From Acidimicrobiia bacterium (lineage in GTDB: Bacteria; Actinomycetota; Acidimicrobiia; IMCC26256; PALSA-610), in contig DATBAK010000059.1 in the NCBI GenBank assembly GCA_036271555.1, forward strand, positions 1 through 64,000: a stretch of 64,000 bases of DNA. Reading direction: 5' to 3'. Each line of letters begins with the position of its first letter. Within the stretch, counting starts at the first letter, position 1. Shown here one piece after another: positions 13,851 to 39,830 of this stretch. A program made the translations under genes and the position numbers. The notes beneath the pieces are model-generated. The model was not told where the DNA came from, searched no databases, and worked only from the letters and a program-made list of their open reading frames with translations.

Positions 13851-14453
13851 ATGGAGTGGCTGCATCGGCGAGGCGCACGGCGACAGTTCGAGGAGTTCGT
13901 CGCCGACGCCGCGGCCGGGCTCGCGCGCACGGCGTACCTCATGACGTGGGATCTCGCCGAGAGCGAGGACCTCGTGCAGGAGACGTTCCTGCGCGTCGCG
14001 CGCCGGTGGGACCGCGTCCGCACGATGGACCAGCCGATCGCGTATGCCCGCCGGGTGCTCGTGAACCTCGTGCTCGACGGCTCGGCCCATCGCCGGCGTC
14101 GCCGTGACGAGCTCGCGGTGCCCGACGACGCGTTGCGGGTGATCGCCGATCACCGCGCGACGCAGGCGCTGCACTCCGTCGACGAGCACGACGGCCTGCG
14201 GCGCGCGCTCGGCGAGCTCCCGCGCAAGGAGCGCGCGCTGATGGTGCTGCGCTACTGGGACGACCTGCCCGAGCGCGAGATCGCGCGGCTGCTCGGCTGC
14301 TCGACCGGCACCGTGAAGAAGACCGCGTGGCGAGCGATGCTGCGGCTCCGCCGGAGCCTGCGCGTCGATCTCAGCCAAGCGGGCGACGCGGATCCCCCCG
14401 TCCGCGCCGCCGACCTCGTGACCGTTCCCGACGACGAAGGAAGTGCCCCGTGA
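13851..14453 (+). CDS. ECF RNA polymerase sigma factor, SigE family
   Basis: 200 residues. Region 2 (about 12-80) includes DLVQETFLRVARRWDRV, and region 4 (about 125-175) includes LPRKERALMVLRYWDDLPEREIARLLGCSTGTVKKTAWRA, typical of actinobacterial SigE-family ECF factors (TIGR02983). A clear GGGAGG ribosome site precedes the ATG. Its stop codon overlaps the GTG start of a single-pass membrane protein, the usual sigma/anti-sigma arrangement. Target promoters are not evident; no obvious autoregulated ECF promoter was found upstream. Confidence 0.92.
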   Translation: MEWLHRRGARRQFEEFVADAAAGLARTAYLMTWDLAESEDLVQETFLRVARRWDRVRTMDQPIAYARRVLVNLVLDGSAHRRRRRDELAVPDDALRVIADHRATQALHSVDEHDGLRRALGELPRKERALMVLRYWDDLPEREIARLLGCSTGTVKKTAWRAMLRLRRSLRVDLSQAGDADPPVRAADLVTVPDDEGSAP

Positions 14454-15764: not shown

Positions 15765-17828
15765 TCAGCCGGCGATGAGCGGGATGGTGGGAGTCTTCGG
15801 CAGGAGCTCGTCGACGCGGGCGAGGAACTCGGCGAGGTCGATGGGCTTCGTCACGTACGCGGTCGCACCCTCGGCGAGCAGACGCTCGATCTGGCGCTCG
15901 GTCGCGTCGGCGCTCAGCACGATCACCGGCAGGTCGGCGGTCGCGGGCTCGGCGCGCAGCTGCTGCAGCACGTCGCGCCCGTCCATGTCGGTGAGGTGCA
16001 GGTCGAGCAGCACCAGCGCGGGCGGCTCGCGGCGCGCGAGATCGAGACCCATGCGCCCTTGCATCGCGGGCACGAGGTCGATGTCGCCGCGCGACGCGAA
16101 CACGTGCTCGATGAGCTTCACGTTCGCGAGGTTGTCCTCGATGTAGAGGACGGTGTGGCGCGCCGCGTCGCGCGCCGCGGCCTCGACGGGCTCGGGGTTC
16201 ATCCGCTCGAAGCGCTCGACCGGTCCTTCGGTCAGCGGCAGCTCCACGTAGAAGGTGCTGCCGCGGCCGACGGTCGACTCGAAGTCGAGGCGCCCGCCCA
16301 TCGCGTCGGTGAGCTTGCGCGACAGCGCGAGCCCGACGCCGGTGCCCTCGACGTTCGTCTGCTCGGCGCCGAGCCGCTCGAACGGCTGGAACAGCTTCGA
16401 CTGCGACTCGAGCGGGATGCCGGCACCGGTGTCGGTGACGCTGATCCGGATCTGGCCGGGATCGCGGCGGTCGCAGCCGATCGCGATCGTGCCGCCGACG
16501 CGGTTGTACTTCACCGCGTTCGACAGCAGGTTCAGCAGCACCTGCCGCAGCCGTTGCCGGTCGGCGAGGACGTACGCGTCGGCCGCGCCGAGGTTCGCCG
16601 TGATCGTCACCGAGCGCTCGACGGCGAGCGGGCGGATGAGGTCGAGCACGTCGCTCACGACGTCGGTCGGGAGCACCGGCTCGGCCGAGAGCGCGAGGTT
16701 CCCGGTCTCGATGCGCGAGATGTCGAGGACCTCGTTGATGAGTTGGAGAAGGTGCCGGCCGCCCTTCACGATCTGCGTCACCGACTCCCGCTGCTCCTCG
16801 CTGAGCGGCTCGATCTCGAGCAGCTGCGCGAAGCCGAGTACCGCGTTCAGCGGCGTGCGCAGCTCGTGACTCATGCGGGAGAGGAACTCGCTCTTCGAAT
16901 CGTTCGCGGCCTCGGCCGACGTGCGCGCGATCTCGAGCTCCGCCATCGTCTGCTCGAGCACCGCGGTGCGCTCGGCGACGAGGTGCAGCGCGTACGCGCG
17001 GCGCCGCATCATCAGCGCGATGACGAGCGCGACGATCACCGAGCCGAACAGCCCGAGCGTGAGGACGATCCACGGCACCGCGAGCGCGAGCGATCCGACC
17101 AGCGGTTCCCGGCTCGTCAGCACGACGAGCCACTTGTCGGCGCCGACGGTGACGGTGCGGCTGTCGACCGCGCCCTTCATCGGGAGATGCGTGGTCGTCG
17201 TCGACAGGATCTGGCTCGCCACCGGCTTCGTACCCGTGTAGATGGCGCCTTCGAGCTCGTTGAACGGCGAGCTCGGTGACGACTCGGTCACCTTCACGGG
17301 CCCGATGGTCGACTCGCTGTACACGACGAGACCGCCGGGGATCGCCTGCGCGAACGCGAGCCCGCGATCGTTGCCGGTCGCGCCGGGGATGATGACACTG
17401 ACGAAGCCCTTCGCCTTCGTGGCGCGCTCGACGAGCGCGGCACGCGTCCCCGTCACCGTTCCGCCGGTTGTCAGGCCCTTGCCGGCCGCGGCGCGCACGA
17501 CGTCGTTGCCGCCGCCGGTCGCGACGATCGCGAGGTTGCCACGACCGTTCGCCGTGAACTCCGCGGCGATCGTCTGGAACGCGCGACCCTGCGCGCCGTC
17601 GGCTTCGTACACCGTGCCGACGAGCCCGAGCTGCGATCCGAGCGTGCCGATCGAGCTCGTGAGGAACGCGCCGACCTCGCCCGCGCGCTCGTGCAGCAAC
17701 CGGTGCTCCTGTTCCTGCACCGAATCGTGCAGCACGAGCGATGCGATGATCGTCAGCACCGCGAGCACGACGAACAGCGCGGGCGGGGTGAACCGCGAGG
17801 TCCGCGAGTGAATGTGGGTGCGCGTCAT
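15765..17828 (-). CDS. Hybrid sensor histidine kinase with C-terminal receiver
   Basis: 687 residues. A membrane helix at about 14-34, an extracytoplasmic sensor domain to about 235 and a second helix near 250-275 are followed by a short coiled linker. HisKA carries His321 in RMSHELRTPLNAV, HATPase has LLSNAVKYNR, DTGAGIP and GTGVGLAL, and a receiver (about 570-687) has IEDN, the phospho-acceptor in LLDLHLTDMDG, and VTKPID. The sensor domain has no cysteine motif and resembles CHASE-type ligand domains only by layout. The ATG overlaps the stop of the receiver-EAL gene (ATGA), so the two are coupled; the kinase may phosphorylate that receiver. Confidence 0.9.
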   Translation of the reverse strand: MTRTHIHSRTSRFTPPALFVVLAVLTIIASLVLHDSVQEQEHRLLHERAGEVGAFLTSSIGTLGSQLGLVGTVYEADGAQGRAFQTIAAEFTANGRGNLAIVATGGGNDVVRAAAGKGLTTGGTVTGTRAALVERATKAKGFVSVIIPGATGNDRGLAFAQAIPGGLVVYSESTIGPVKVTESSPSSPFNELEGAIYTGTKPVASQILSTTTTHLPMKGAVDSRTVTVGADKWLVVLTSREPLVGSLALAVPWIVLTLGLFGSVIVALVIALMMRRRAYALHLVAERTAVLEQTMAELEIARTSAEAANDSKSEFLSRMSHELRTPLNAVLGFAQLLEIEPLSEEQRESVTQIVKGGRHLLQLINEVLDISRIETGNLALSAEPVLPTDVVSDVLDLIRPLAVERSVTITANLGAADAYVLADRQRLRQVLLNLLSNAVKYNRVGGTIAIGCDRRDPGQIRISVTDTGAGIPLESQSKLFQPFERLGAEQTNVEGTGVGLALSRKLTDAMGGRLDFESTVGRGSTFYVELPLTEGPVERFERMNPEPVEAAARDAARHTVLYIEDNLANVKLIEHVFASRGDIDLVPAMQGRMGLDLARREPPALVLLDLHLTDMDGRDVLQQLRAEPATADLPVIVLSADATERQIERLLAEGATAYVTKPIDLAEFLARVDELLPKTPTIPLIAG

Positions 17829-27928: not shown

Positions 27929-28327
27929 TCAGAGCGCGGGCTGCGCTCGCTTGGTCGCTCGGAAGTGCGCGTGCCCGGCGTTCTCGCAGAGCTCGTAGTC
28001 GTCGACGACCGCGGCGAGCACCTGTGACGCGAGCCTCGTCAGCACCGGATGCCGGGCGACGGTCGCGTCGGCATCGACGACGAACTGACCGTCGTGCGGC
28101 GAGAACCGGAACAGGATCTCCGAGGTCGGCTGCGCTTGAATGACCGCGGTCGTCAACTCGTCGACCGCGACGAGCACGTCGTCGATCGCGTCGACGTCGA
28201 AGTCGAGTCGCTCGGCCACGACCGCCGCCGTCAGTCGCGCGACGCGCACATGACTGCGCGACCCCGGGACGGACAGGCACACGGGTTGGGTGAGCACGGT
28301 GGCGCGGTGATCGCCGGGATCGCTCAC
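27929..28327 (-). CDS. Reduced RsbW-like anti-sigma ATPase domain protein
   Basis: 132 residues from a GTG with GAGG upstream. The N box region is recognisable (IDDVLVAVDELTTAVIQAQP) as in RsbW/SpoIIAB-type HATPase_c_2 proteins, but the following G1 and G2 glycine-rich ATP loops are not visible (HDGQFVVDAD is all that remains), and the C-terminal half is helical. It may bind a partner without phosphorylating it. A longer frame from an ATG at 28399 is possible, but a SigB-like promoter falls inside it, which favours the GTG. Divergent from the CsbD-like pair. Confidence 0.6.
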   Translation of the reverse strand: MSDPGDHRATVLTQPVCLSVPGSRSHVRVARLTAAVVAERLDFDVDAIDDVLVAVDELTTAVIQAQPTSEILFRFSPHDGQFVVDADATVARHPVLTRLASQVLAAVVDDYELCENAGHAHFRATKRAQPAL

Positions 28328-28373
28328 GCGGGCTGCCTCTCGTCCGCAGGGCTGGAGCAGAGCGCGCGGAGAC

Positions 28374-28399
28374 CTACCCACGCGCTTCGGCGCCGACAC
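28374..28399 (-). promoter_or_regulatory. Possible SigB/SigF-type promoter for the RsbW-like gene
   Basis: On the minus strand, GTGT, 16 bases, then GGGTAG. The -10 element is identical to that of the divergent promoter 50 bases away; the -35 is weaker than GTTT. It lies about 45 bases upstream of the GTG start, a fitting leader length. Confidence 0.4.
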
Positions 28400-28431
28400 C
28401 CGCTCGTTCCCGTGACGCGTCTGTGCATGCC

Positions 28432-28456
28432 GTTATCGCGTAGACGACGTGGGTAG
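28432..28456 (+). promoter_or_regulatory. SigB/SigF-type promoter for the CsbD-like pair
   Basis: GTTA, 15 bases, then GGGTAG, close to the general-stress sigma consensus GTTT-N13-16-GGGTAT, about 30 bases upstream of the first CsbD-like start. General-stress control of such genes is well known in Gram-positive bacteria, and the partner-switching cluster next door fits. Confidence 0.6.
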
Positions 28457-28487
28457 GAAACCAAATCCCCCCGACGGAAGGATGTGC

Positions 28488-28739
28488 ATGCAACTCGGAA
28501 AGGTCGATGTCAACAAGCTCCGCGGCTTGGGCGACAAGGCGTTCGGCCTCGCGAAGGAGACGGTCGGCACGATCACGAACAACGACCGCCTCGTCGAAGA
28601 GGGCGACGCGCAGCAGTCGCGTGCGGCCGAGGAGCTGCGCGCGATGCGCAAGGAAGTCGAGGCACAGCGCGAGGAGATCAAAGCCGACGCGCTGGAGCAG
28701 AAGCAGAAGGCCGCGGAGCGCGCCAAGCAGCGCGCGTGA
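28488..28739 (+). CDS. Microaggregate-binding/CsbD-like stress protein
   Basis: 83 residues, highly charged and helical, with a core KAFGLAKETVGTITNNDRLVEEGDAQQSRAAEELRAMRKEVEA like mycobacterial Mbp1-type small proteins. No membrane segment or cysteine. The ATG at 28488 is preferred because GGAAGGA sits six bases upstream; an ATG two codons earlier is too close. Preceded by a SigB-type promoter and followed within 22 bases by a second protein of the same class. Likely stress-induced; molecular role unknown. Confidence 0.75.
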   Translation: MQLGKVDVNKLRGLGDKAFGLAKETVGTITNNDRLVEEGDAQQSRAAEELRAMRKEVEAQREEIKADALEQKQKAAERAKQRA

Positions 28740-28761
28740 GCACCGACGAAAGGACACCGAG

Positions 28762-28980
28762 ATGAGCGGACCGATCGAGCAGGCCAAGGGCGCGGTCAAG
28801 GAGAAGGCCGGCGACATCATGAACGACCCGGACCTGCAGCGCGAGGGTGCAGCCCAGCGCGACAAGGGTCGTGCCGAGACCGAGGCCACCAAGGCGCGTG
28901 CCGAGGCCAAGGGCCACGAGGCCAAGGCCAAGGCCCACGAGGTCGAGCAGGAAGTCGCGCAGGACCGCAAGGAATCCTGA
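28762..28980 (+). CDS. CsbD-family stress protein
   Basis: 72 residues opening with IEQAKGAVKEKAGDIMNDPDLQREG, the classical CsbD fingerprint (x-G-K-x-K-E-x-x-G-x-x-x-x-D). The rest is an alanine, glutamate and lysine rich helix with heptad-like AKAKA/EAKGHE repeats resembling late-embryogenesis-abundant proteins. Good ribosome site AAGGACACCGAG. Shares the SigB-type promoter with the upstream paralogue-like gene. Cytosolic, probably protective under stress. Confidence 0.88.
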   Translation: MSGPIEQAKGAVKEKAGDIMNDPDLQREGAAQRDKGRAETEATKARAEAKGHEAKAKAHEVEQEVAQDRKES

Positions 28981-29038
28981 CCGCGAGAACAACGTGTGCG
29001 GGACGGCGGCCGCGGTGCGGTCGCCGTCCCGTTGCGCG

Positions 29039-31144
29039 TTACGGAACGCGAAGCACGAGCATCGCGATGTCGTCGTTGCGCTCGCCGATCGGGAGGATGT
29101 CGGAGACCGCCTCGCCCAGACGCGTGACCACGTTCGCCGCCGACGCGCCGTCGCGCGCGACGCGGGCGACGATCGTGCGCAACGCCTCGGTCGACAGATC
29201 GTGCGGCGGTCGCACGTCGGTGATGCCGTCGGTGTAGAGCACGAGCGTGTCGCCGGCCTCGAGCGTGCTCGTGACCGTGGTCGCCTTCGGATCGGCGTAG
29301 GCGCCGAGCAGCGTGCCTGGCATCCCGATCGTCGAAGTGCGGCCGTCGGCACGGCAGCGGATCGGCAGCGGGTGCCCGCCGGCGGCCATCTCGAACGTGA
29401 AGCCCTTGGTGCCGTGGCGCAGCGTGGCGTAGAGCGCGGTGCAGAAGGTCGACCGGCCCGAGCGCAAGATCGCGCGGTTGACGTACTGCAGCACTTCCTC
29501 GTGCGCGAGCCCGTGCCACGCGAGCGTGCGGATCGTGTGGCGGACGAGCCCGGTGAGCGAGGCTGCGTGCGGCCCGGTGCCGCAGACGTCGCCGATGACG
29601 ACGGCCCAGCCGTCGTCGATCTCGAAGACGTCGTAGAAGTCGCCGCCGACCTGGGTGCCCGTGCCCGCGGCCCAGTAGCCGACTGCGAGCTCGAGCCCTT
29701 CGATCTCAGGCAGGGACTCGGGGAGCAGGCTCTGCTGCAGGGTCGTCGCGATGAGGCGCTGGTGCTCGGCGAGCCGTCGGTTCATCAGCGTCGACGCGAT
29801 GCGCCCGGCCGCAACCTCCGCGAGCGCGCGGTCGGCCTCGGTGTACACGCGTCCCCACGTCGAGTTCACGAACTGCAACGCGCCGAGCACGCGTCCCCGC
29901 TTGATCAGCGGCACGGTGATCGCGCTCCGCAACGCGAGGCGGCGTGCGATCTCGCGTTGTTCGTTCGTGATCGGCGCGTGGTGCAGCGTCGACTCGTCGA
30001 CCTCGGGCAGGAACTCCGTCCGTCCGGTCCGCACCACCGCGCCGACACCGGTGGACGCGTCGATGTCGAAGGGGAACGTTGTTTGCATCTCGCGCGCAAA
30101 CGGTTCCATCGCGGGATCGGCGTGCGCGACCTCGATCATCGGCCGGCCCTCGCCGTCGTCGGGCAGCACGACGATCGCGCACCACTCACCCAGCCACGGC
30201 ACCGCGGCGCGGGTGACGTTCGTCAGCACCTCGAGCTCGGTGTCGGCGCGGTTCAACGCGTCGTTGATGTCGGCGAGGAACTGCAGCCGTTCCCGGCCGA
30301 GACGTTCGATCTCCGCCGCCGCGAGCGCGAGGTCGTGATCGCGCTCGTGCGCGAGCGCGCGCCGCATCGGCTCGGTCACGTCGGCGGTGCATCCGATCGT
30401 GCCGGTGACGTTGCCCGCGGCGTCGACCGTGACGCGGCCCTTCCCCTGTAACCAGTGCACGCTGCCGTCGGGCCACACCACGCGGTGATCGACGACGTAG
30501 GGCTGTCGCGTTCGCACGGCCTCCTCGACCGTCGTGGCGGTCGCGGCGCGGTCGTCGGGATGCAGCAGCGCGAGGTACGAGTCGTACGTACCGTCGAACG
30601 TGCCCGGCAGCAGACCGAAGAGCCGTTCGAGGGGGGCGTCCCACTCGACGACCTCCCGCTCGAGGTCCCACCGCCAGGTGCCGAAGCCGCCGGCGTCGAG
30701 CGCGAGCGCGAGCCGCTCGGTGAGATCCTGCGCCCGTCGGTCGAGCAGCCGCTGCTCGGTGACGTCCTCCGACACGGCCACGATGCCTTCGACCGTTCCG
30801 TCAGGCGCGACGACCCCGCGAACGAACGTGTGCACGAAACGCGAGTTGCCGTCGCGCCGCGTCACCGTGAAGTCGCCGGCGAAATCCATGCCGGCAACGG
30901 CGCGCGCCCGGACGTCCTCGGCTCGATCGAGCTCGCTCACCGGGATCATCAGCTCGAAGACGTCACGCCCGACCACCTCGGCTTCGGTCCAACCGTAGAG
31001 ATCCTCGGCCGCGCGGTTCCACGTGACGATCTCTCCATCGGTGCGGGTCACGACGACGGCGCGCCGCAGCGCGTCGAGGACCGATCGATCGGAGATCGGA
31101 GTCGCCGCGAGCAACGACTCGTTCACCGACTCCACGCCGGTCAT
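29039..31144 (-). CDS. PAS-PAS-GAF-PP2C phosphatase, RsbU-type
   Basis: 701 residues. Two PAS domains (about 20-130 and 145-265; the second with the PAC-type WLQGKGRVTVDAAGNVTGTIGCTADVT), a GAF domain (about 290-445) and a C-terminal SpoIIE-type PP2C domain (about 465-700) whose metal-binding acids are in GGDFYDV, VVIGDVCGTG, YTDGITD and NDDIAML. It should remove phosphate from a serine of a STAS antagonist and so free a sigma factor. It is cytosolic, in contrast to the membrane phosphatase at 32801-34492, giving two separate inputs. It follows the STAS-containing operon on the same strand after about 266 bases that contain intergenic repeat copy B. Confidence 0.9.
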   Translation of the reverse strand: MTGVESVNESLLAATPISDRSVLDALRRAVVVTRTDGEIVTWNRAAEDLYGWTEAEVVGRDVFELMIPVSELDRAEDVRARAVAGMDFAGDFTVTRRDGNSRFVHTFVRGVVAPDGTVEGIVAVSEDVTEQRLLDRRAQDLTERLALALDAGGFGTWRWDLEREVVEWDAPLERLFGLLPGTFDGTYDSYLALLHPDDRAATATTVEEAVRTRQPYVVDHRVVWPDGSVHWLQGKGRVTVDAAGNVTGTIGCTADVTEPMRRALAHERDHDLALAAAEIERLGRERLQFLADINDALNRADTELEVLTNVTRAAVPWLGEWCAIVVLPDDGEGRPMIEVAHADPAMEPFAREMQTTFPFDIDASTGVGAVVRTGRTEFLPEVDESTLHHAPITNEQREIARRLALRSAITVPLIKRGRVLGALQFVNSTWGRVYTEADRALAEVAAGRIASTLMNRRLAEHQRLIATTLQQSLLPESLPEIEGLELAVGYWAAGTGTQVGGDFYDVFEIDDGWAVVIGDVCGTGPHAASLTGLVRHTIRTLAWHGLAHEEVLQYVNRAILRSGRSTFCTALYATLRHGTKGFTFEMAAGGHPLPIRCRADGRTSTIGMPGTLLGAYADPKATTVTSTLEAGDTLVLYTDGITDVRPPHDLSTEALRTIVARVARDGASAANVVTRLGEAVSDILPIGERNDDIAMLVLRVP

Positions 31145-31333
31145 CGTGACGACCTCGAACCGGCCCAGTGCTCGCGCATCGGCATCGCGTCCTCGTCCGA
31201 TTGCTGCCGGTTGCGCTGGTCGCTCAACGTCCGACCCGCGAACTTTACCGGCCGCTCCGAGGACACCGATCGTCGCGCCAACGTCGCGCGAGGGGCGTGA
31301 GCCTGACGAGCATCAGGTGGTGCGCGCACGAAC

Positions 31334-31410
31334 GGGCGGGTCGCGTTGCGGCCCGCCCGAACCGGTGGCTGAGGCGTCGAGGAGGGCGAAGCGTGCGCGC
31401 CCGACCAGAA
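31334..31410. repeat. Intergenic repeat, copy B
   Basis: Same element as copy A: hairpin GGGCGGG...CCCGCCC, then GGCTGAGGCGTCGAGGAGGG and GCGCGCCCGACCAGAA. As in copy A it ends exactly at the stop codon of a minus-strand gene (here a STAS protein). On the transcript it would lie just 3' of that gene, upstream of the PAS-GAF-PP2C gene. Confidence 0.7.
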
Positions 31411-31731
31411 CTAATCGAACAGGCCGAAGCGAGCTTCGAGGTCGGTGACGCGGAAGAGGCGGCGAACCGGCGGCTGCAGGTTCGTGAGCGCGAGCACGGT
31501 CTCGTACGCGTCCGCCTTGCCCTGAGCTGCGATGAACATCCCGATTCCGCCGGAATCGCAGAACTCGAGCTCGGTGAGGTCGATCGTCACCGTGTCGGCG
31601 CTCTCGATCGATGTCATCAGCGTCGGCTGGATGTCGGGAAGGCTGCGCACGGTGAGATCACCGCCGATGCGGACGAGCCGCGTTTCGGGCGGGCCTGTGA
31701 CCTCGATCCAGGCGACGTCGACGTCCATCAC
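31411..31731 (-). CDS. STAS-domain anti-sigma factor antagonist
   Basis: 106 residues. The STAS fold is clear from IRIGGDLTVRSLPDIQPTL-like strands and the helix preceded by TIDLTELEFCDSGGIGMFI. The phospho-acceptor serine of SpoIIAA/RsbV proteins lies in the DSGGIG motif. It should bind an RsbW-type kinase when unphosphorylated. The start is GTG at 31731 (overlapping the previous stop) or the ATG one codon on. Second STAS protein of the operon, separated from the first by the RsbW-like and acidic genes. Confidence 0.88.
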   Translation of the reverse strand: MMDVDVAWIEVTGPPETRLVRIGGDLTVRSLPDIQPTLMTSIESADTVTIDLTELEFCDSGGIGMFIAAQGKADAYETVLALTNLQPPVRRLFRVTDLEARFGLFD

Positions 31732-31928
31732 GACGACGGATCGTCGGGCTCGTCCGTCAACTCGACGGATTCACCCTCCTCCGATCGTCCCTCTTCCATG
31801 AGCTCGAGCTCGAAGGTCTCGCGCGCCGTCGTCGGATCGGGATTCTCGGTCTTCGCCTCGTCGGCGAGCTCCTCGACCGGTTCTTCGCCTTCGGCGGCGC
31901 GCCGATCGGGACCGGGTGTGTGCGTCAC
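31728..31928 (-). CDS. Small acidic hypothetical protein (66 aa)
   Basis: 66 residues with about one third Asp/Glu and a short amphipathic core ARETFELELMEEGRSEEGESVELT. Probably disordered. It lies between the RsbW-like and second STAS genes, and its stop overlaps the STAS start, so translation is coupled. I know no family; a docking or DNA-mimicking peptide for the partner switch would be pure speculation. Open frame and operon position are the only support that it is expressed. Confidence 0.5.
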   Translation of the reverse strand: MTHTPGPDRRAAEGEEPVEELADEAKTENPDPTTARETFELELMEEGRSEEGESVELTDEPDDPSS

Positions 31929-31938
31929 GCCACCCGCC

Positions 31939-32490
31939 TTACCCGGAACGGCGTGCGTTCAACAGCCGAGCGGCGCGACAGGCCGGACCGCGGCGCGGCG
32001 CATCGCGCGGTGGCGGGTTCGATCGCGGCCGCGCGGCACCACTCGACGCGTGCCCGGGGCCCGTCGACGCGCTCGCAGGACGTGTTGTCGCCGTCGCGTC
32101 GCCGCCGCGCGTCACGCGCGGTGCGATCGTCACGACGAACCACACGGTCTTCCCCGGGCGACCCACGTTCTCGGTGACGCCCCACTCGTCGGCGAGCGCG
32201 CGCACGATCTGCAGACCACGACCCGAGTACTCGCGCGGCTCGGGCGTGCGCAGGCTCGGCAGACGGGAGCCGTCGTCGCTCACGGCGACGCGAACGCGTT
32301 GATGATCGCGATCGACGGCGACGGTGAACGGGCTCGCCGCGTGGCGCACGGAATTCGTCGCGAGCTCCGAGACCATGACCGCGATCGAGTCGAGGATGTC
32401 GGTTGGCGCCTCGCCGAGCGCCTCCAGCGCGTAGCGGCGCGCGCGTCCGATCGACTCGACGGCGTGCGGGAACGTGCGCTCGGCACTCAT
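31939..32490 (-). CDS. RsbW-type anti-sigma factor kinase
   Basis: 183 residues. HATPase_c_2 domain with N box VMVSELATNSVRHAAS (about 38-53), G1 region VSDDGSRLP and G2 loop GRGLQIVRALADEWGV; all ATP-binding parts are present. A basic, proline-rich tail of about 50 residues (from 130 on) is unusual for the family. It should both bind a SigB/SigF-class sigma factor and phosphorylate the neighbouring STAS proteins. Its ATG overlaps the stop of the upstream STAS gene. The sigma factor itself is not in the window. Confidence 0.87.
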   Translation of the reverse strand: MSAERTFPHAVESIGRARRYALEALGEAPTDILDSIAVMVSELATNSVRHAASPFTVAVDRDHQRVRVAVSDDGSRLPSLRTPEPREYSGRGLQIVRALADEWGVTENVGRPGKTVWFVVTIAPRVTRGGDATATTRPASASTGPGHASSGAARPRSNPPPRDAPRRGPACRAARLLNARRSG

Positions 32491-32813
32491 GGCTCGATCG
32501 GCAGGACGTCGGTGAGCCCGGTCGCCTCGAGGATGCGTTGCACGACGCTCGACGGGTTGCGAAGCCGGATCGAATCGGTCTTCTCCGCGGCGCGCAGCAG
32601 CACCGCGATGCCGGAGCTGTCGATGAAGCTCAGCCCCGACAGGTCGAACACCACCTGTGCAGGGTGACCGGCGAGCGCGCCGCTGAGGTCGGTCTCGACC
32701 GTCACGACGTTCGACATGTCGACCTCGCCGCGGATGCTGATGAGCCGCGGGTCCGAGTTGTTCTGCGTGCACTCGATGCTCGCCGTCGATCCGCTCTCCT
32801 CTAGCTCAGCCAT
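32487..32813 (-). CDS. STAS-domain anti-sigma factor antagonist, RsbV-type
   Basis: 108 residues. ISIRGEVDMSNVVTVETDL and VVFDLSGLSFIDSSGIAVLLRA match RsbV/SpoIIAA; the serine pair of IDSSGIA contains the phospho-acceptor. A slightly long, acidic N-terminus precedes the fold. It overlaps the membrane phosphatase gene by 13 bases at its start and the RsbW gene by 4 at its end, so all three are tightly coupled. Confidence 0.92.
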   Translation of the reverse strand: MAELEESGSTASIECTQNNSDPRLISIRGEVDMSNVVTVETDLSGALAGHPAQVVFDLSGLSFIDSSGIAVLLRAAEKTDSIRLRNPSSVVQRILEATGLTDVLPIEP

Positions 32814-34492
32814 CGGAGTCCCAGCAGCGCGGTGTCGTCGGCTGATCCGGTCGGGATCGACGTGGCGAGGATGCTCGAGAGCCGATCGGACAGCGAACCG
32901 TCGAGGCCGAGCGATCCCTGGCGGAGCCGCTCGCGGCCGATGTCGAGGTGTTCTCCTCGCCGCTCGACGAGGCCATCGGTGTACGCAAGCACGGTCGCAC
33001 CCATCGGGATCTCAACGGAGACGGCACTATAGGGCGCTCCGGTCTCGACCCCGAGGGGCGCGCCGATCGGCGAGGGGAGGAACCGGGCGTCGCCGCCGGC
33101 GACGAGCAACGGCTCGGGATGGCCGGCGTTCGCGAACGTCATGCGGTGGCCGGCCACGTCGACGACGCCGCAGACGGCCGTCGCGAAGTGCCCGTCGCGC
33201 GCCACGCTGATGAGCCGTGCGACCTTGGCGAGCATCGTCTCCGGAGCGTCGCCCTGCATCGCGTACGCGCGGAACGCGTAGCGGAGCTCGGCCATCGTCG
33301 TCGCGGCGCGCAGCCCGTGTCCGGATACGTCGCCGACGACGAACACGACGCGACCGTCGTCGAGCTCGACGACGTCGTACCAGTCGCCACCGACATCGAA
33401 GCCCTCCGCGCCCGCGACGTAGCGCGCCGCGAGCTCGACGCCGGAAACGTCGGGAAGCACATCGGGTAACAGCCCGTGCTGAAGTGCGACCGTCACGTTG
33501 CGTTGCTCGCGATAGAGCTCGTCGTTCTCGCGCGCGAGAGATTCGGCGTGGTCGCGGCGGCGCGAGAGCCGCTCGACGAGGAACGCACCCGCGAGGGTGA
33601 GCACGAGGCCGGCGAGCGCCAGCGCCCACGGCAGCCGCGCGAGCAGCTCGCCACCGAGCTCGCCGCGCGCCTGGACGACGAGGAGGATCTGCGCGGAACC
33701 GAACGTCACGAGCTGCGACGAGCGCCGGCCGCCGAGCAGCGCGCCGCCCGTGCTCGTCGCGATCAGCTCGTCGGGATCGGCACGACGACCGAGGAACAGC
33801 GCGTAGTCGAGATCGGAGAACGCGGAGTTCGTGTCGACGCGCGCGCGCCGACCCGCAGGCAGCGACGCCTCGACGTAGACGACGTAGTGCGTGCCCGCGC
33901 CGGGCGCGGCGTAGCCGTAGCCGAGCCGCCGATCGCGCGCCTTCAGCAGGTCGTTGATGACGATCGTTCCCTGGCTCTTGGGCGGGCGCAGCACCCGCGC
34001 GATCGCGGCGGACGACTCGCTCGCGAGCTCGGGCGCGGTCCCGACCGTGACGACCCGCCGCAACGACGTGGGCGACACCGACCAGAGCGTGGCGCTCGTG
34101 AACCGGCCCGAGCCGACCATCGGCGCGAGGACCTGACGGAACGGTCCGGGTGATCCTGCGGTCGCGGCGGCGAGGACTGCCGCCGTCGCGAGCGGCGTCT
34201 GGATGTCGGGGATCGCGGCGCCGACGACCGCGGCCGCCTCGAGCGCCCGTTGATGCAGCAGCCGGCGCTCGTTGCTCTCGTGGAGATGTTGTGATCCGAG
34301 CGACAGCGTGCTCGTGATGAGCAGGCCGACGACGAGCACGGCGACCGATCCCGCGTGCACCATCGAAGTCCGGCGCCGCTTCGCAGCCGGAGTGGGGCGT
34401 TCGAGCCGGTCGGGCGCGCCGAGGGCGTGTGATGGCGCGCTCGGCGCACCGCCGTGCGGTGCTTCGTCCGTGACCGGCGCACCGCGGGACAT
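32801..34492 (-). CDS. Membrane-anchored PP2C/SpoIIE phosphatase with extracytoplasmic sensor
   Basis: 563 residues. A cytoplasmic leader of about 45 residues, a membrane helix (about 48-66), an extracytoplasmic domain to about 285 and a second helix (about 290-308) precede a short coiled linker and a SpoIIE-type PP2C domain (about 335-563) with GGDWYDV, VVGDVSGHG, YTDGLVERR and ADDTALL. It senses something outside the cell and dephosphorylates the STAS protein encoded just downstream. ATG start MSRGAPVT chosen; a longer frame upstream lacks support. First gene of the partner-switching operon. Confidence 0.9.
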   Translation of the reverse strand: MSRGAPVTDEAPHGGAPSAPSHALGAPDRLERPTPAAKRRRTSMVHAGSVAVLVVGLLITSTLSLGSQHLHESNERRLLHQRALEAAAVVGAAIPDIQTPLATAAVLAAATAGSPGPFRQVLAPMVGSGRFTSATLWSVSPTSLRRVVTVGTAPELASESSAAIARVLRPPKSQGTIVINDLLKARDRRLGYGYAAPGAGTHYVVYVEASLPAGRRARVDTNSAFSDLDYALFLGRRADPDELIATSTGGALLGGRRSSQLVTFGSAQILLVVQARGELGGELLARLPWALALAGLVLTLAGAFLVERLSRRRDHAESLARENDELYREQRNVTVALQHGLLPDVLPDVSGVELAARYVAGAEGFDVGGDWYDVVELDDGRVVFVVGDVSGHGLRAATTMAELRYAFRAYAMQGDAPETMLAKVARLISVARDGHFATAVCGVVDVAGHRMTFANAGHPEPLLVAGGDARFLPSPIGAPLGVETGAPYSAVSVEIPMGATVLAYTDGLVERRGEHLDIGRERLRQGSLGLDGSLSDRLSSILATSIPTGSADDTALLGLRWLS

Positions 34493-35187: not shown

Positions 35188-35335
35188 GGCGCGAACGCTA
35201 CCGGGAGCGCGACGGGCCTCCCGAACCGCGACGCGCGGCGCGCGGCGCGCGCTCGTTACATCAACGTTGGCTCAACGACGAGTGGCTTCTGCTCATAGGG
35301 CGTATAACCGGTGCAGGTTGACCGAAGGAGTGGGG

Positions 35336-36034
35336 GTGAACGTCATGGTGGGTGCCCAGGCTCGCGTCCTCGTGGTGGAAGACCTCGAGTCGGCGCGTGA
35401 GCTGGCGGTCGAAGCTCTCGAGGCGCACGGTTTTTCGACAACGACGTGCGCCGACGGCGCGGCGGCGTTGCAGGCGATCCGGGGCGAGCCGCTGAACGCG
35501 GTGGTGCTCGATCTCGGGCTGCCGTCGATGAGCGGCTTCGATCTGCTCCAGGAGCTCCGGCGCGCGAGCGACATCCCGGTCGTGATCGTGAGCGGCCGCG
35601 CCGAAGAGGGCGACCGCCTGCAGGGACTGCGGCTCGGTGCCGACGACTACCTCGTCAAGCCGTTCTCGCCACGCGAGCTCGGTGAGCGCGTGCGCGCGGT
35701 GCTGCGGCGGTCGAATCCCTCGTCCCGCACGGAATCACTCGTGTTCGACGGCATCGAGATCAACCTCAGCGCGCGCGAAGTGCGCGTCGACGGTGAGGTC
35801 GTCGCGCTGACACCGCTCGAGTTCACGCTCCTCGTGTTCCTCGCGAGCTCGCCGCGCCGCGTGTTCTCGCGCGCGGACCTGTTGCGTGCGGTGTGGGGCT
35901 CCGATGCCGGGTGGCAGACGCCCGCGACCGTGACCGAGCACGTGCGCCGGCTGCGGCGCAAGCTCGAGCCGTCAAGCGGAGGGAAGTGCTGGATCGTGAC
36001 CGTGCGCGGCGCCGGGTACCGGTTCGAGCCGTAG
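35336..36034 (+). CDS. OmpR-family response regulator
   Basis: 232 residues: receiver (VVEDLES, phospho-Asp in VLDLGLPSMSG, VSGRAEE, VKPFSP) and winged helix (LTPLEFTLLVFLASSPRRVFSRADLLRAVWG...VTEHVRRLRRKLEP...RGAGYRFEP). The GTG at 35336 has GAAGGAG five bases upstream; an ATG three codons on is an alternative. A TATAAC hexamer at 35303 may be its -10. Its 3' end overlaps by 63 bases, in antisense, with the convergent histidine kinase gene. Target genes unknown. Confidence 0.93.
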   Translation: MNVMVGAQARVLVVEDLESARELAVEALEAHGFSTTTCADGAAALQAIRGEPLNAVVLDLGLPSMSGFDLLQELRRASDIPVVIVSGRAEEGDRLQGLRLGADDYLVKPFSPRELGERVRAVLRRSNPSSRTESLVFDGIEINLSAREVRVDGEVVALTPLEFTLLVFLASSPRRVFSRADLLRAVWGSDAGWQTPATVTEHVRRLRRKLEPSSGGKCWIVTVRGAGYRFEP

Positions 36035-37147
36035 CCGGTCCGGCGTGAGCGGCAGCGCGATCCGGAAGGTCGCGCCGGGCTCGTCGGTCTCGATCACGTC
36101 GAGCGATCCGCCCATCGCCTCCATCAAGGCGCGGCTCACGCACAGCCCGAGCCCCGTGCCGGCGACACCGCGTCGACTCGCGTCGAGCCGTTCGAACGGC
36201 TCGAAGATGCGCTCGCGCTGCGCGCGGTCGATGCCGGGCCCGCTGTCGTGCACGTCGACCGCGGCGACGCGACCGTCGAGCGACGTGGTGACGGTGACGG
36301 TGCTCCCCTCGGGGCCGAACTTCAACGCGTTGGTGAGCACGTTCAGCAGCACCTGGTGCAGGCGTTGCGCGTTCCCCGTCGCGGTGACCGGGCCGCCGGC
36401 GCGCGCGTCGGTGTGCAACGTGATGGTGCGCTCACCGGCCAGGGGCTCGAGCACGTCGAGGGCCTTGCCGACCGCCGTGTCGACGTCGACGTGCTCGCGC
36501 ATCAGCGAGCCGGACGGATCCTCGAGGCGCGCGAGATACAGCGCGGTGTCGAGCAGGCTCACGAGCTGCGCGCCGCTCTCCTGCATGAGCGTCGCCCAGC
36601 GGTGCTGCTTCTCGTTGAGCGTCGAGCTGGTGAGCAGCTCCGCGAAGCCGAGCATCGAGCTCAACGGTGTGCGCATCTCGTGGCTCAGCTCGGCGAGGAA
36701 CGCGACCTTGGCCGCGTGCTCGCGCGTTCGCACCTCGGGCACCTCGACGGCGTCGATGATCGCCAGCCGGCTCGAGTAGGTGCCGCTCGCGTCGAAGAGC
36801 GGCGTGCTCGTGACGTGGACGCGGCGGGGCCCGCCGTGCACGGGGTGGATCACGTAGTCGAGGTCGACCTTCCGCGGCTCGTCGGCGACCCGTTCGAGGT
36901 GGCGCTGCACGCGTTGCGCGCCATCGGGATCGAGGCGATCGATCCACGCCTCCGGTCCCTTGAGGATCTCGTCGTAGGGGAGGCCCATCACCTCGGCGCT
37001 CGCGTGGGTCGCCCACACGACGCGGTACGGCTCGCGCGTCGCCAGGATCACGCCGATCGGCAGATTGAGCGCGAGGTCGTCGACCAGCGCCGCCCGTTCT
37101 TGTGTGGTGAGGTCGATCGTGTCCGCCCGTGAAGCTGGGTCGCGCAT
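35972..37147 (-). CDS. PAS-containing sensor histidine kinase
   Basis: 391 residues, soluble. PAS domain (about 25-135), then HisKA with His156 in ELSHEMRTPLSSML and a HATPase domain with VLTNALKFGPEG, DSGPGID and GTGLGL. No membrane segment, so the signal is intracellular. Convergent with the OmpR-type regulator, whose coding end it overlaps by 63 bases; these two are probably a cognate pair despite the unusual orientation. Divergent from the hybrid kinase that opens the chemosensory region; about 270 bases lie between, with no further gene. Confidence 0.9.
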   Translation of the reverse strand: MRDPASRADTIDLTTQERAALVDDLALNLPIGVILATREPYRVVWATHASAEVMGLPYDEILKGPEAWIDRLDPDGAQRVQRHLERVADEPRKVDLDYVIHPVHGGPRRVHVTSTPLFDASGTYSSRLAIIDAVEVPEVRTREHAAKVAFLAELSHEMRTPLSSMLGFAELLTSSTLNEKQHRWATLMQESGAQLVSLLDTALYLARLEDPSGSLMREHVDVDTAVGKALDVLEPLAGERTITLHTDARAGGPVTATGNAQRLHQVLLNVLTNALKFGPEGSTVTVTTSLDGRVAAVDVHDSGPGIDRAQRERIFEPFERLDASRRGVAGTGLGLCVSRALMEAMGGSLDVIETDEPGATFRIALPLTPDRLRLEPVPGAAHGHDPALPSA

Positions 37148-37420
37148 CGATTGCTACTCGTGAAGGCGGCCGAAGCGCCGAGATCTCGAGTCCGTCGCGC
37201 GAATCGACATGTTGGCCCGCTTGCCTCTCCCCCGAATGCAGTCGGATCGTAGCCGTCGAATTGCGGCTACGGAGCGTGCTCGGGGCGTCGTCGACGCGCG
37301 GCGAGGCACCGCGCGCCCGTGTGACGAATCGTTGTGAATTCCGTGGTTGAACTGCCGCGTTGTGTCGCCGACAAGACGCCAGCGCTCTCCATTGCTCGGA
37401 GAGGCGAACGAGGCGGGAAC

Positions 37421-39481
37421 ATGCACGACGACATCGGCGGGGAGGGAAACGCGACGGGCGGCGACGCGCGTCGCATGGTGCCCTTCGGCGCGAGCGCGCC
37501 GCGCGCGCTGATCGTCGATGACGATTCGATGTTGCGGACGCTGTTCTCGCGTGTGCTGAACGGTGCCGGTATCGAGACGACGGTCGCGGAAGACGGTGCG
37601 GCCGCGCTCGAGATCCTGCAGCAGGACCCGACGTACGTCGTGATCCTCGACAACCACATGCCCGGCATCACCGGACTCGAGGTCGTGCGGAAGCTGCGCG
37701 CCAATCCGGAGACGGTGAACATTCCCGTGATCCTCGTCACCGGCGAGGCCGACCTCTCGGACCGCGTACGCGGGCTCGAGCTCGGCGCCGACGACTACCT
37801 CACCAAGCCGGTGGAACCCGACGAGCTCGTCGTGCGCGTGCGCGCGCAGCTGCGCCGGAGCTTCTCGGCCGACCCGTTGCGCACCTTCGTCGAATCTGCG
37901 AACGACGCGTTCGTCGCGTGGGACGCCGAAGGGCTCGTCACCGAGTGGACCACGCACGCCGAGGTCCTGTTCGGCTGGCGGCGGGACGAGATCATCGGCA
38001 AGCCGTTCACCTCGACGGTGCTCGCGCCGCGCCACCGTGAGGCGCACGAGGATCGCATGCGCCGGTTCGCGAGCGCGGGTGAGGCGCCGCTGCTCGGCGA
38101 GTGGATCGAGCTCACCGGTCGGCACCGCGACGGGCGCGACATCCCGGTCGAGATGACGATCTGGATCGTCGACGACCACGGCCGCCGGATCTTCAGCGCC
38201 TTCATGCGGGACCTCCGTGCGAAGCGCGACATCCAGAACGCACTGCGCGAGAGCGCGCAGCTCCAGGCGCTCGTCGAGTCGTCGCCCGACATCATCCTGC
38301 TCACCGATACCGACGGCGTCATCCTCTACACGTCGCCCTCGGCGCGCGACATCCTCGGGTTCGAACCCGACGACCTGTACGGCCGGTGCTGCGACGATCT
38401 CGTCTACGCGGACGACCGCGTGGAGTTCATTCGCGCCCGGAGCCGCTCGCTGGCTTCGGGCGCGGACATCGCGACGACCCACCGCTTCGTCACCGCGGAA
38501 GGCGGGCAGGTGTGGGTGGAGGCGAGCTCCGCGGCCACGCGCCACCGTGTGACGGGCAAGATCACGGGGCTCGAGCTCGTCGCGCGCGACATCACGAACC
38601 GCAAGATCGCAGAGGAGGAGCGCGAGCAGGTCATGGCCGACCTCGCGCGCGCCAACACGAACCTGCGCGACGCGATCTCACGCGAGCAGCGCATGGTCGA
38701 GGACCTGCAGAAGCTCGACCGCCTCAAGACCGAGTTCGTCGCGACCGTCTCGCACGAGCTGCGCACGCCGCTCACGAGCATCAGCGGCTACGTCGAGATG
38801 CTCGTCGACCAGGGCGGAGGCGAGCTCACGCCGAGGCAGCAGTCGATGCTCGACGTGGTCGAGCGCAACACGCGCCGGCTCCTGTTGATGATCGACAACC
38901 TGCTCACGATCGGGCGCATCGAGGCCGGAGCGTTCGACATCGAGCCCGGTCCCGTCGAGGCGGTGCCGCTCATTCGCGGCGCGATCAGGGCCATGTTGCC
39001 GACCGCGCAGGAGCGCGACATCACGCTCCAGGTCGACTTCCTGCACAACCCGGGCATCGTGCTCGCCGACGCCGCGCAGTTCGACCGCGCGCTGCTGAAC
39101 GTGCTGTCGAATGCCGTGAAGTTCACGCCGGCGGGCGGGCGCGTCACCGTGACGACCGATCGCGTCGACGACGAGGTGATGGTCAGCATCGCCGATACCG
39201 GCGTGGGCATCCCCCTCGACGAGCAGGAGCGGCTCTTCACGCCGTTCTTCCGCTCGTCGACGTCGGTGAAGTCGGAGACGCAGGGCACGGGCCTCGGGCT
39301 CGTGATCGTGAAGAACATCGTCGAGGGGCACGGGGGTTCGATCCGTCTCGACTCGACGCCCGACATCGGCACGACGGTGACCATGACCATCCCGGCCGAG
39401 CCGCAACATCCCGTCGTTCACGCGAGCGACGACGTTTCACACCAGGAAGGACAGCGCCATGACGTCGATTCTCGTCGTTGA
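37421..39481 (+). CDS. REC-PAS-PAS histidine kinase
   Basis: 686 residues. N-terminal receiver (VDDDSML, phospho-Asp in VVILDNHMPGITG, LTKPVEP; about 25-140), two PAS domains (about 150-265 and 285-400, the latter VESSPDIILLTDTDGVILYTSPSA...), a coiled linker, HisKA with His445 in TVSHELRTPLTSISGY, and a HATPase domain with VLSNAVKFTPAGG, DTGVGIP and GTGLGLVI. Soluble. The receiver at the front suggests it is itself a phosphorelay target. The ATG with GAGGCGGG upstream is preferred over a GTG at 37334. Overlaps the next gene by 23 bases. First gene of the plus-strand signalling array. Confidence 0.88.
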   Translation: MHDDIGGEGNATGGDARRMVPFGASAPRALIVDDDSMLRTLFSRVLNGAGIETTVAEDGAAALEILQQDPTYVVILDNHMPGITGLEVVRKLRANPETVNIPVILVTGEADLSDRVRGLELGADDYLTKPVEPDELVVRVRAQLRRSFSADPLRTFVESANDAFVAWDAEGLVTEWTTHAEVLFGWRRDEIIGKPFTSTVLAPRHREAHEDRMRRFASAGEAPLLGEWIELTGRHRDGRDIPVEMTIWIVDDHGRRIFSAFMRDLRAKRDIQNALRESAQLQALVESSPDIILLTDTDGVILYTSPSARDILGFEPDDLYGRCCDDLVYADDRVEFIRARSRSLASGADIATTHRFVTAEGGQVWVEASSAATRHRVTGKITGLELVARDITNRKIAEEEREQVMADLARANTNLRDAISREQRMVEDLQKLDRLKTEFVATVSHELRTPLTSISGYVEMLVDQGGGELTPRQQSMLDVVERNTRRLLLMIDNLLTIGRIEAGAFDIEPGPVEAVPLIRGAIRAMLPTAQERDITLQVDFLHNPGIVLADAAQFDRALLNVLSNAVKFTPAGGRVTVTTDRVDDEVMVSIADTGVGIPLDEQERLFTPFFRSSTSVKSETQGTGLGLVIVKNIVEGHGGSIRLDSTPDIGTTVTMTIPAEPQHPVVHASDDVSHQEGQRHDVDSRR

Positions 39482-39830
39482 CGACGACCAGGACATCCGC
39501 GAGCTCGTCGCGTTCAAGCTCGAGCAGTTGGGTTTCGAGGTGCACGCAGAGGCCGACGGCGAGACGGGTCTCGCCGCGGTGATGCAGTTGCAGCCCGACC
39601 TCGTGCTGCTCGACTGGATGATGCCGAAGCTCACGGGCGTCGAGGTCTGCAAGATGCTGCGCGAGGGCGGAGACCACTCGGGCGTGCCCGTGATCCTGCT
39701 CACCGCTCGCGCGCAGGAAGCCGACATCGAGCGTGGCTTCGCGGCCGGCGCCGATGACTACATCGTCAAGCCCTTCAGCCCTCGCGAGCTCGCGAGTCGC
39801 GTCGAAGCGGTCTTGTCGCGGGTGGGGTGA
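39459..39830 (+). CDS. Single-domain response regulator (CheY-like)
   Basis: 123 residues: VVDDDQDI, phospho-Asp in VLLDWMMPKLTG, LLTARAQE and IVKPFSP; all five conserved receiver positions intact. No output domain. It overlaps the hybrid kinase and precedes the HEAT protein by six bases. In this gene order it is the best candidate for the diffusible messenger between the kinase/CheA and the HEAT-glycosyltransferase unit. Confidence 0.92.
   Translation: MTSILVVDDDQDIRELVAFKLEQLGFEVHAEADGETGLAAVMQLQPDLVLLDWMMPKLTGVEVCKMLREGGDHSGVPVILLTARAQEADIERGFAAGADDYIVKPFSPRELASRVEAVLSRVG

Follow-up and report, generated by a model that had tools for sequence, protein, structure and literature searches.

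A probable sensing arm of a SigF-type partner switch in an Acidimicrobiia genome, with a fast-evolving anti-sigma paralog among its genes

The subject of this report is a 64,000-nucleotide stretch of an Acidimicrobiia bacterium genome (assembly GCA_036271555.1, contig DATBAK010000059.1, positions 1 to 64,000 of the forward strand; hereafter "the window"), which carries at 27929-34492 a cluster of genes for two PP2C phosphatases, two STAS proteins and an RsbW-type kinase. This cluster probably serves as the input, or sensing, arm of a SigF-type partner switch for which a different contig of the same genome, C10, encodes the sigma factor and the anti-sigma factor. The kind of system is already known; what is new is that a trio of sensor-PP2C, STAS and kinase genes is conserved apart from sigF, that a second phosphatase and a second STAS protein stand alongside it, and that a fast-evolving duplicate of the anti-sigma factor lies among the input genes. 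The named genes of the cluster are open frames on the minus strand, most with domain support from a Pfam profile search, as a preliminary description of this DNA had proposed; absent from that description was a divergent pair of CsbD-like genes (28488-28980), located between the second phosphatase and the orphan paralog:

32801..34492, minus strand: membrane PP2C phosphatase, 563 residues; two hydrophobic segments flank a predicted tandem-PAS-like extracytoplasmic sensor, with a SpoIIE-type PP2C domain C-terminal to them
32487..32813, minus strand: STAS-1, an RsbV/RsfB-like antagonist (STAS 1.4e-16; best PDB match M. tuberculosis RsfB, 5.6e-6)
31939..32490, minus strand: canonical RsbW-type kinase (HATPase_c_2 3.3e-13; N box ELATN; G2 box SGRGLQIV)
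31728..31928, minus strand: acidic peptide, 66 residues, isoelectric point 4.05
31411..31728, minus strand: STAS-2, a second antagonist-like STAS protein (STAS_2 8.8e-15)
29039..31144, minus strand: PAS-PAS-GAF-PP2C phosphatase, 701 residues, with PAS, GAF and SpoIIE-type PP2C matches
28488..28739, plus strand: CsbD-like gene a, Pfam score below the cut-off
28762..28980, plus strand: CsbD-like gene b, Pfam score about at the cut-off
27929..28327, minus strand: orphan anti-sigma paralog (the "reduced RsbW" of the preliminary description), 132 residues, from a GTG start chosen in this analysis

At the level of primary structure, the proteins carry the motifs to be expected if the phosphatases are active, the STAS proteins phosphorylatable and the RsbW protein a kinase. 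The SpoIIE-type PP2C matches of the two phosphatases have e-values of 5.5e-44 and 3.8e-37, and both proteins carry the GGD and GDVxGxG blocks; the pattern of the third PP2C block was matched in the PAS phosphatase only, the membrane enzyme having, by eye, ADDTA at that place. The phospho-acceptor serine motif is DSSG in STAS-1 and DSGG in STAS-2. The genes for the membrane PP2C, STAS-1 and the kinase run into each other, the latter two by ATGA, and the acidic peptide and STAS-2 genes overlap by TGATG.

The absence of a sigma factor from the cluster, already pointed out in the preliminary description, evokes the question of where the target of such a switch is encoded. No sigma gene was detected within 27929-34492, so that the cluster departs from the B. 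subtilis-type SigB module, where one operon encodes the sigma factor, the STAS protein and the kinase; Sigma70_r2 has a single match in the window, at 13920-14102, in a frame that falls below the SigBFG cut-off. Genome-wide, a single one of 43 Sigma70_r2 matches exceeds that cut-off, with 274 bits against a threshold of 234. It is located at C10:165190-165864, directly behind an anti-sigma gene (the locus spans about C10:165178-166331), and its protein has one match at 1e-35 in the genome. A genome devoid of any SigB/SigF-class factor, named in the preliminary description as the outcome that would imply a different target, is thus ruled out. The anti-sigma family and SigF occur in exactly the same 25 of the 58 genomes of the order, and 29 of 33 anti-sigma matches in the order are immediately followed by a SigF gene. 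The other four comprise the window copy, single copies in G041 and in G048, and a partial, weak match in G042.

None of the 35 rows of the anti-sigma family alignment shows, by eye, the N-box asparagine, so a switch built on this family needs a separate kinase. The window kinase is the sole free-standing RsbW-type kinase found in the genome; the search covered 11 HATPase_c_2 matches above the cut-off, translated except for those on C48, C26 and C83, and inspection by eye assigned five of them to histidine kinases. About 2 kb from sigF, at C10:168015-170051 on the plus strand (L026 15-2051), lies a gene for a protein that joins GAF and PP2C to an RsbW-type kinase domain at its C terminus (N box ELVTN), a fusion that we take to resemble M. 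tuberculosis Rv1364c. In relatives, kinases adjoin SigF in 7 of 27 loci, an eighth (L036) having a short match; a direct linkage of these kinases to the window kinase was considered and dropped, most of them falling outside its group in the tree, and they are kept as an analogy only.

The membrane phosphatase offers a further argument for a link between the cluster and SigF. Its sensor half is predicted, with a confidence (predicted local distance difference test, pLDDT) of 86, to be an extracytoplasmic tandem-PAS-like domain with the fold of extracytoplasmic ligand-binding domains; the ten best rows of a comparison with the PDB are nearly tied at Z 12.3-13.1 and root-mean-square deviation (rmsd) 3.4-4.2. 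The division of labor that had been proposed between outside and inside sensing therefore agrees with the predicted folds, the other phosphatase being of the PAS-PAS-GAF type. In the nine loci fetched from relatives around this sensor, PP2C, STAS-1 and kinase genes occur together in six (G031, G008, G004, G013, G011 and one G026 locus); the remaining three are G049, with a PP2C and no kinase match, the second G026 locus, and G007, where the sensor is carried by a histidine kinase. The sensor is present in 12 of the 58 genomes, all 12 with SigF, which is found in 13 of the 46 others (p 5.8e-6); counted by genus the figures are 8/8 versus 9/24 (p 0.003), and kinship and genome size can inflate both p values. 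An earlier count had employed the anti-sigma factor over 61 genomes (11/12), and was repeated with SigF over the 58. STAS-2 matches occur in 21 of the 61 genomes. A contig-level scan gave one Streptomyces locus, which did not enter the analysis. The conservation of the trio elsewhere fits an organization of the cluster into two units, in which either phosphatase could serve either STAS protein. The two inputs may be gated separately through the two STAS proteins, as the preliminary description suggested.

The closest parallel is the SigF system of M. smegmatis (RsbW1/2/3, RsfA, RsfB, RsfSR). According to PMC7693655, RsbW1 is the anti-sigma factor there, RsbW2, encoded beside RsfB, is the kinase of RsfB, and RsbW3 is an RsbW1-like member of the SigF regulon that binds RsbW1 and not SigF; PMC10950880 reports that a PP2C encoded next to rsfB-rsbW2 dephosphorylates RsfB. 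Three features described in these sources recur here: an anti-sigma factor without the kinase N box beside sigF, a separate kinase (here with N and G2 boxes) whose gene adjoins that of an RsfB-like STAS protein at a different locus and is close to a PP2C gene, and an additional anti-sigma paralog encoded at a distance from sigF, namely RsbW3 there and the orphan here. The two systems differ in the phosphatases, a membrane sensor-PP2C and a PAS-PAS-GAF PP2C here as opposed to a receiver-PP2C under a histidine kinase there, and in the position of the paralog, which in M. smegmatis is near rsfA and here sits among input genes and two CsbD-like genes. Since a likely counterpart exists for each M. 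smegmatis component except the type of phosphatase input, the cluster is read as the SigF sensing arm.

The B. subtilis SigB module shares with the cluster a PP2C, an RsbV-like STAS protein and an RsbW-like kinase, and its RsbW is encoded in an operon with sigB. There, as PMC7693655 describes, a single RsbW is both kinase and anti-sigma factor, whereas here two proteins, encoded on different contigs, share the two functions between them. These data suggest that the anti-sigma/kinase split of RsbW is not confined to mycobacteria, where it was shown, but extends to a distant lineage.

From these gene identities and motifs we infer the following binding, kinase and phosphatase steps. The RsbW kinase would phosphorylate STAS-1, and perhaps STAS-2, holding the STAS proteins inactive, and phosphate would be removed either by the membrane PP2C upon recognition of an extracytoplasmic ligand or by the PAS-PAS-GAF PP2C upon cytoplasmic cues. 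The unphosphorylated STAS protein could then bind the non-kinase anti-sigma factor, releasing SigF, which would switch on stress genes that probably include the CsbD pair of the window. In such a scheme the most likely role of the orphan would be that of a modifier, pairing with the true anti-sigma factor in the manner of RsbW3.

Several observations weigh against this assignment. A SigF match is found in none of the nine fetched sensor loci, STAS-2 and the PAS-PP2C were not found next to the trio in those loci, the sensor is lacking in 13 of the order's 25 genomes with SigF, and within the family alone the co-occurrence is not significant (p 0.07). The SigF-adjacent kinases of seven relatives lie mostly outside the tree group of the window kinase. 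In addition, the assembly consists of 104 contigs with 4.45% contamination, and the window and C10 are linked only by assembly and paralogy. A further one is an ECF-like sigma frame, read as such by eye, that is located downstream of the trio in G004 (L096, 8662 onward), together with a YCII-like frame.

The orphan merits separate discussion, being an anti-sigma factor duplicate that, as judged from alignment and tree, evolves fast, lacks an antagonist-contact arginine and is placed among input genes. It shares 49% identity over 115 residues with the C10 anti-sigma factor, and the two are sisters in a 35-row tree (support 97/90) with end branches of 1.45 and 0.27, respectively; no sigF adjoins it. 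Its HATPase_c_2 match (2.5e-4) is under the Pfam cut-off, and its AlphaFold2 model has a mean pLDDT of 92.4. Among solved structures, the best match of the model is UsfX, the anti-SigF protein of M. tuberculosis, in the UsfX-RsfB complex (8ih8_D, Z 17.6, rmsd 1.8, 118 of 132 residues), with B. subtilis RsbW tied (6m36_A, Z 17.1) and a SigF/anti-sigma complex close behind (8jzt_B, Z 16.0); M. tuberculosis Rv1364c is also among the matches. The model thus predicts a complete RsbW/UsfX fold. The preliminary description was right that an RsbW-fold protein lies close by, but "reduced" misleads: kinase motifs are missing from the orphan because the whole anti-sigma family is without them, so that the word describes the family, and a truncated kinase is ruled out by the lack of the N-box asparagine in all 35 rows and by the complete predicted fold.

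At 47 positions conserved in the family (kept in at least 7 of 8 members, of which the sister is one), the orphan keeps 29 and the sister 43. The most telling change is at R52, which is arginine in 33 of the 34 other rows, and also in UsfX, and leucine in the orphan. This position aligns with Lys44 of B. subtilis RsbW, by a numbering deduced from a construct starting at residue 5 and with the same offset in the structural match; according to PMC7340262, Lys44 contacts the antagonist RsbV, as do Arg23 and Glu49, whose aligned counterparts R31 and E57 the orphan retains. The orphan is therefore a clear case of anti-sigma duplication with loss of a likely partner contact. A literature search on orphan or heterodimerizing anti-sigma paralogs brought up few papers, from which no absence of such cases from print is concluded. 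Extra copies of the anti-sigma gene without SigF directly behind them are also observed at L160 5209-5541 (G041) and L161 5069-5437 (G048), each within a cluster where an anti-sigma/SigF pair is present as well; both retain the R52 arginine, the G048 match contains a TAG, and together they hint that spare inhibitors may arise repeatedly. Back-to-back double anti-sigma/SigF pairs are seen in L039, L040, L041 and L044 (G032, G016, G018 and G031).

By analogy with RsbW3, a decoy role for the orphan is favored over that of a brake which antagonists cannot lift, and taken by itself is close to evenly balanced, leaning slightly against. A more elaborate proposal, which we hold as tentative and somewhat doubtful, is that the orphan is an anti-sigma factor that has come to regulate the factor it was copied from: duplicated in this lineage with its fold kept and its antagonist-contact arginine lost, it would be induced by SigF and would pair with the anti-sigma factor, or with SigF, in a manner that STAS proteins could not reverse, giving a booster, a timer or a memory.

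The loss of the Lys44 counterpart while R31 and E57 are kept can also be understood in another way, in which the switch is the same and the orphan, rather than a decoy, is an additional functional anti-SigF factor that has become immune to removal by STAS proteins, providing delayed negative feedback. The complete predicted fold and a candidate promoter that may render the orphan SigF-inducible would suit this role; nevertheless, RsbW3, the closest analogue with experimental data, increases SigF activity without binding SigF (PMC7693655), and 18 of the 47 SigF-linked family positions are changed in the orphan, so that SigF binding may be lost too, and we regard this explanation as rather unlikely. 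The same changes, with the long end branch and the 29 positions kept against 43 in a sister that is itself among the eight defining rows, could be those of a decaying duplicate without a role, which is an improbable reading given that the frame is intact, that its guanine-plus-cytosine (GC) content by codon position (0.76/0.45/0.88) is like that of its neighbors, and that the whole fold is modeled with confidence. Least probable is that the trio and second phosphatase control a target other than SigF, such as an extracytoplasmic function (ECF) sigma factor or an enzyme, with the orphan nearby by accident: the nine sensor loci devoid of sigF, the 13 SigF genomes without sensor, the ECF-like frame in G004 and a genome whose five SpoIIE-type PP2Cs and 14 STAS_2 matches permit more than one circuit would allow it, but all 12 sensor genomes have SigF, RsfB is the closest to STAS-1 among solved structures, and an anti-sigma paralog lies inside the cluster.

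If the cluster is indeed the SigF sensing arm, some of its genes could themselves be under SigF control, and from their location and direction we infer, with weak support, the use of three candidate SigF-type promoters:

31939..31964, minus strand: TGTTGA-N14-GGGTAA, before the acidic peptide/STAS-2 unit
28431..28456, plus strand: CGTTAT-N14-GGGTAG, before CsbD-like gene a
28374..28399, minus strand: GTGTCG-N14-GGGTAG, 46 nucleotides before the GTG of the orphan

CsbD is a SigB target in B. subtilis. Across 13 genomes, GGGTA lies 35-120 nucleotides before 16 of 27 CsbD matches (three from the genome itself, two of these in the window), compared with a mean of 2.65 over 20 permutations of the 5-mer, GGGTA itself included, and 2 for TACCC. 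The pattern GTTT-N12-17-GGGTA occurs 29 times in the genome, as compared with 6 times for the reversed control; its sites often immediately precede long frames, among them that of a STAS gene transcribed divergently from the C10 anti-sigma gene. In the sigF loci of relatives, a site scoring at least 18.7 is located near the operon start in six of eight scanned, with weaker sites in the other two. A first matrix, built from 13 CsbD sites of relatives, ranked the STAS-2, CsbD and orphan sites 1, 62 and 88 among 127,926; a second, built after that result by removing L104 and L130 and adding the CsbD site of the genome itself (L110) and 16 of its pattern hits, ranked them 5, 12 and 1. Window sites were excluded from the training of both. 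On the other side of the balance, the GC-rich 5-mer CGCGC ties with GGGTA at 16 genes each, shuffled windows hold about two sites as good as the best of the second matrix, the window has 31 sites scoring at least 8 as compared to 46 in shuffles, and the scores of the three candidates, from the highest down 13.5, 12.0 and 10.9 (training sites 12.3-20.2), are weaker than those of typical sites, none being significant singly. Upstream of the orphan and of its sister, the DNA has GGGTAGGT in common and is otherwise not alignable, so that a promoter copied along with the gene is not demonstrated. For the frames preceded by the GTTT-N12-17-GGGTA sites of the genome itself (L131-L159), inspection by eye points to stress genes, superoxide dismutase and a hemerythrin-like gene among them.

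Two minor features of the cluster concern its coding regions. The acidic peptide looks coding from its GC by codon position (0.76/0.47/0.79), and gave no tblastn match, at the limits used, among the loci searched. The last 56 codons of the kinase (31942-32109, minus strand) are rich in proline and arginine, with a GC by codon position of 0.75/0.88/0.75 that is unlike coding sequence, and have no counterpart in those relatives' kinases whose ends were listed; this stretch may be a run-on tail, possibly generated by a lost stop or a frameshift.

Beyond the cluster, the window carries at 35267-39830 a dense set of two-component genes, encoding a PhoB-like regulator, a PAS histidine kinase, a receiver-PAS-PAS hybrid kinase and a single receiver; in M. 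smegmatis, a two-component pair is next to rsfB-rsbW2. A distant second relative of the membrane PP2C sensor is located at 16986-17804 on the minus strand (25% identity, 5.3e-15), inside a 1016-codon open frame.

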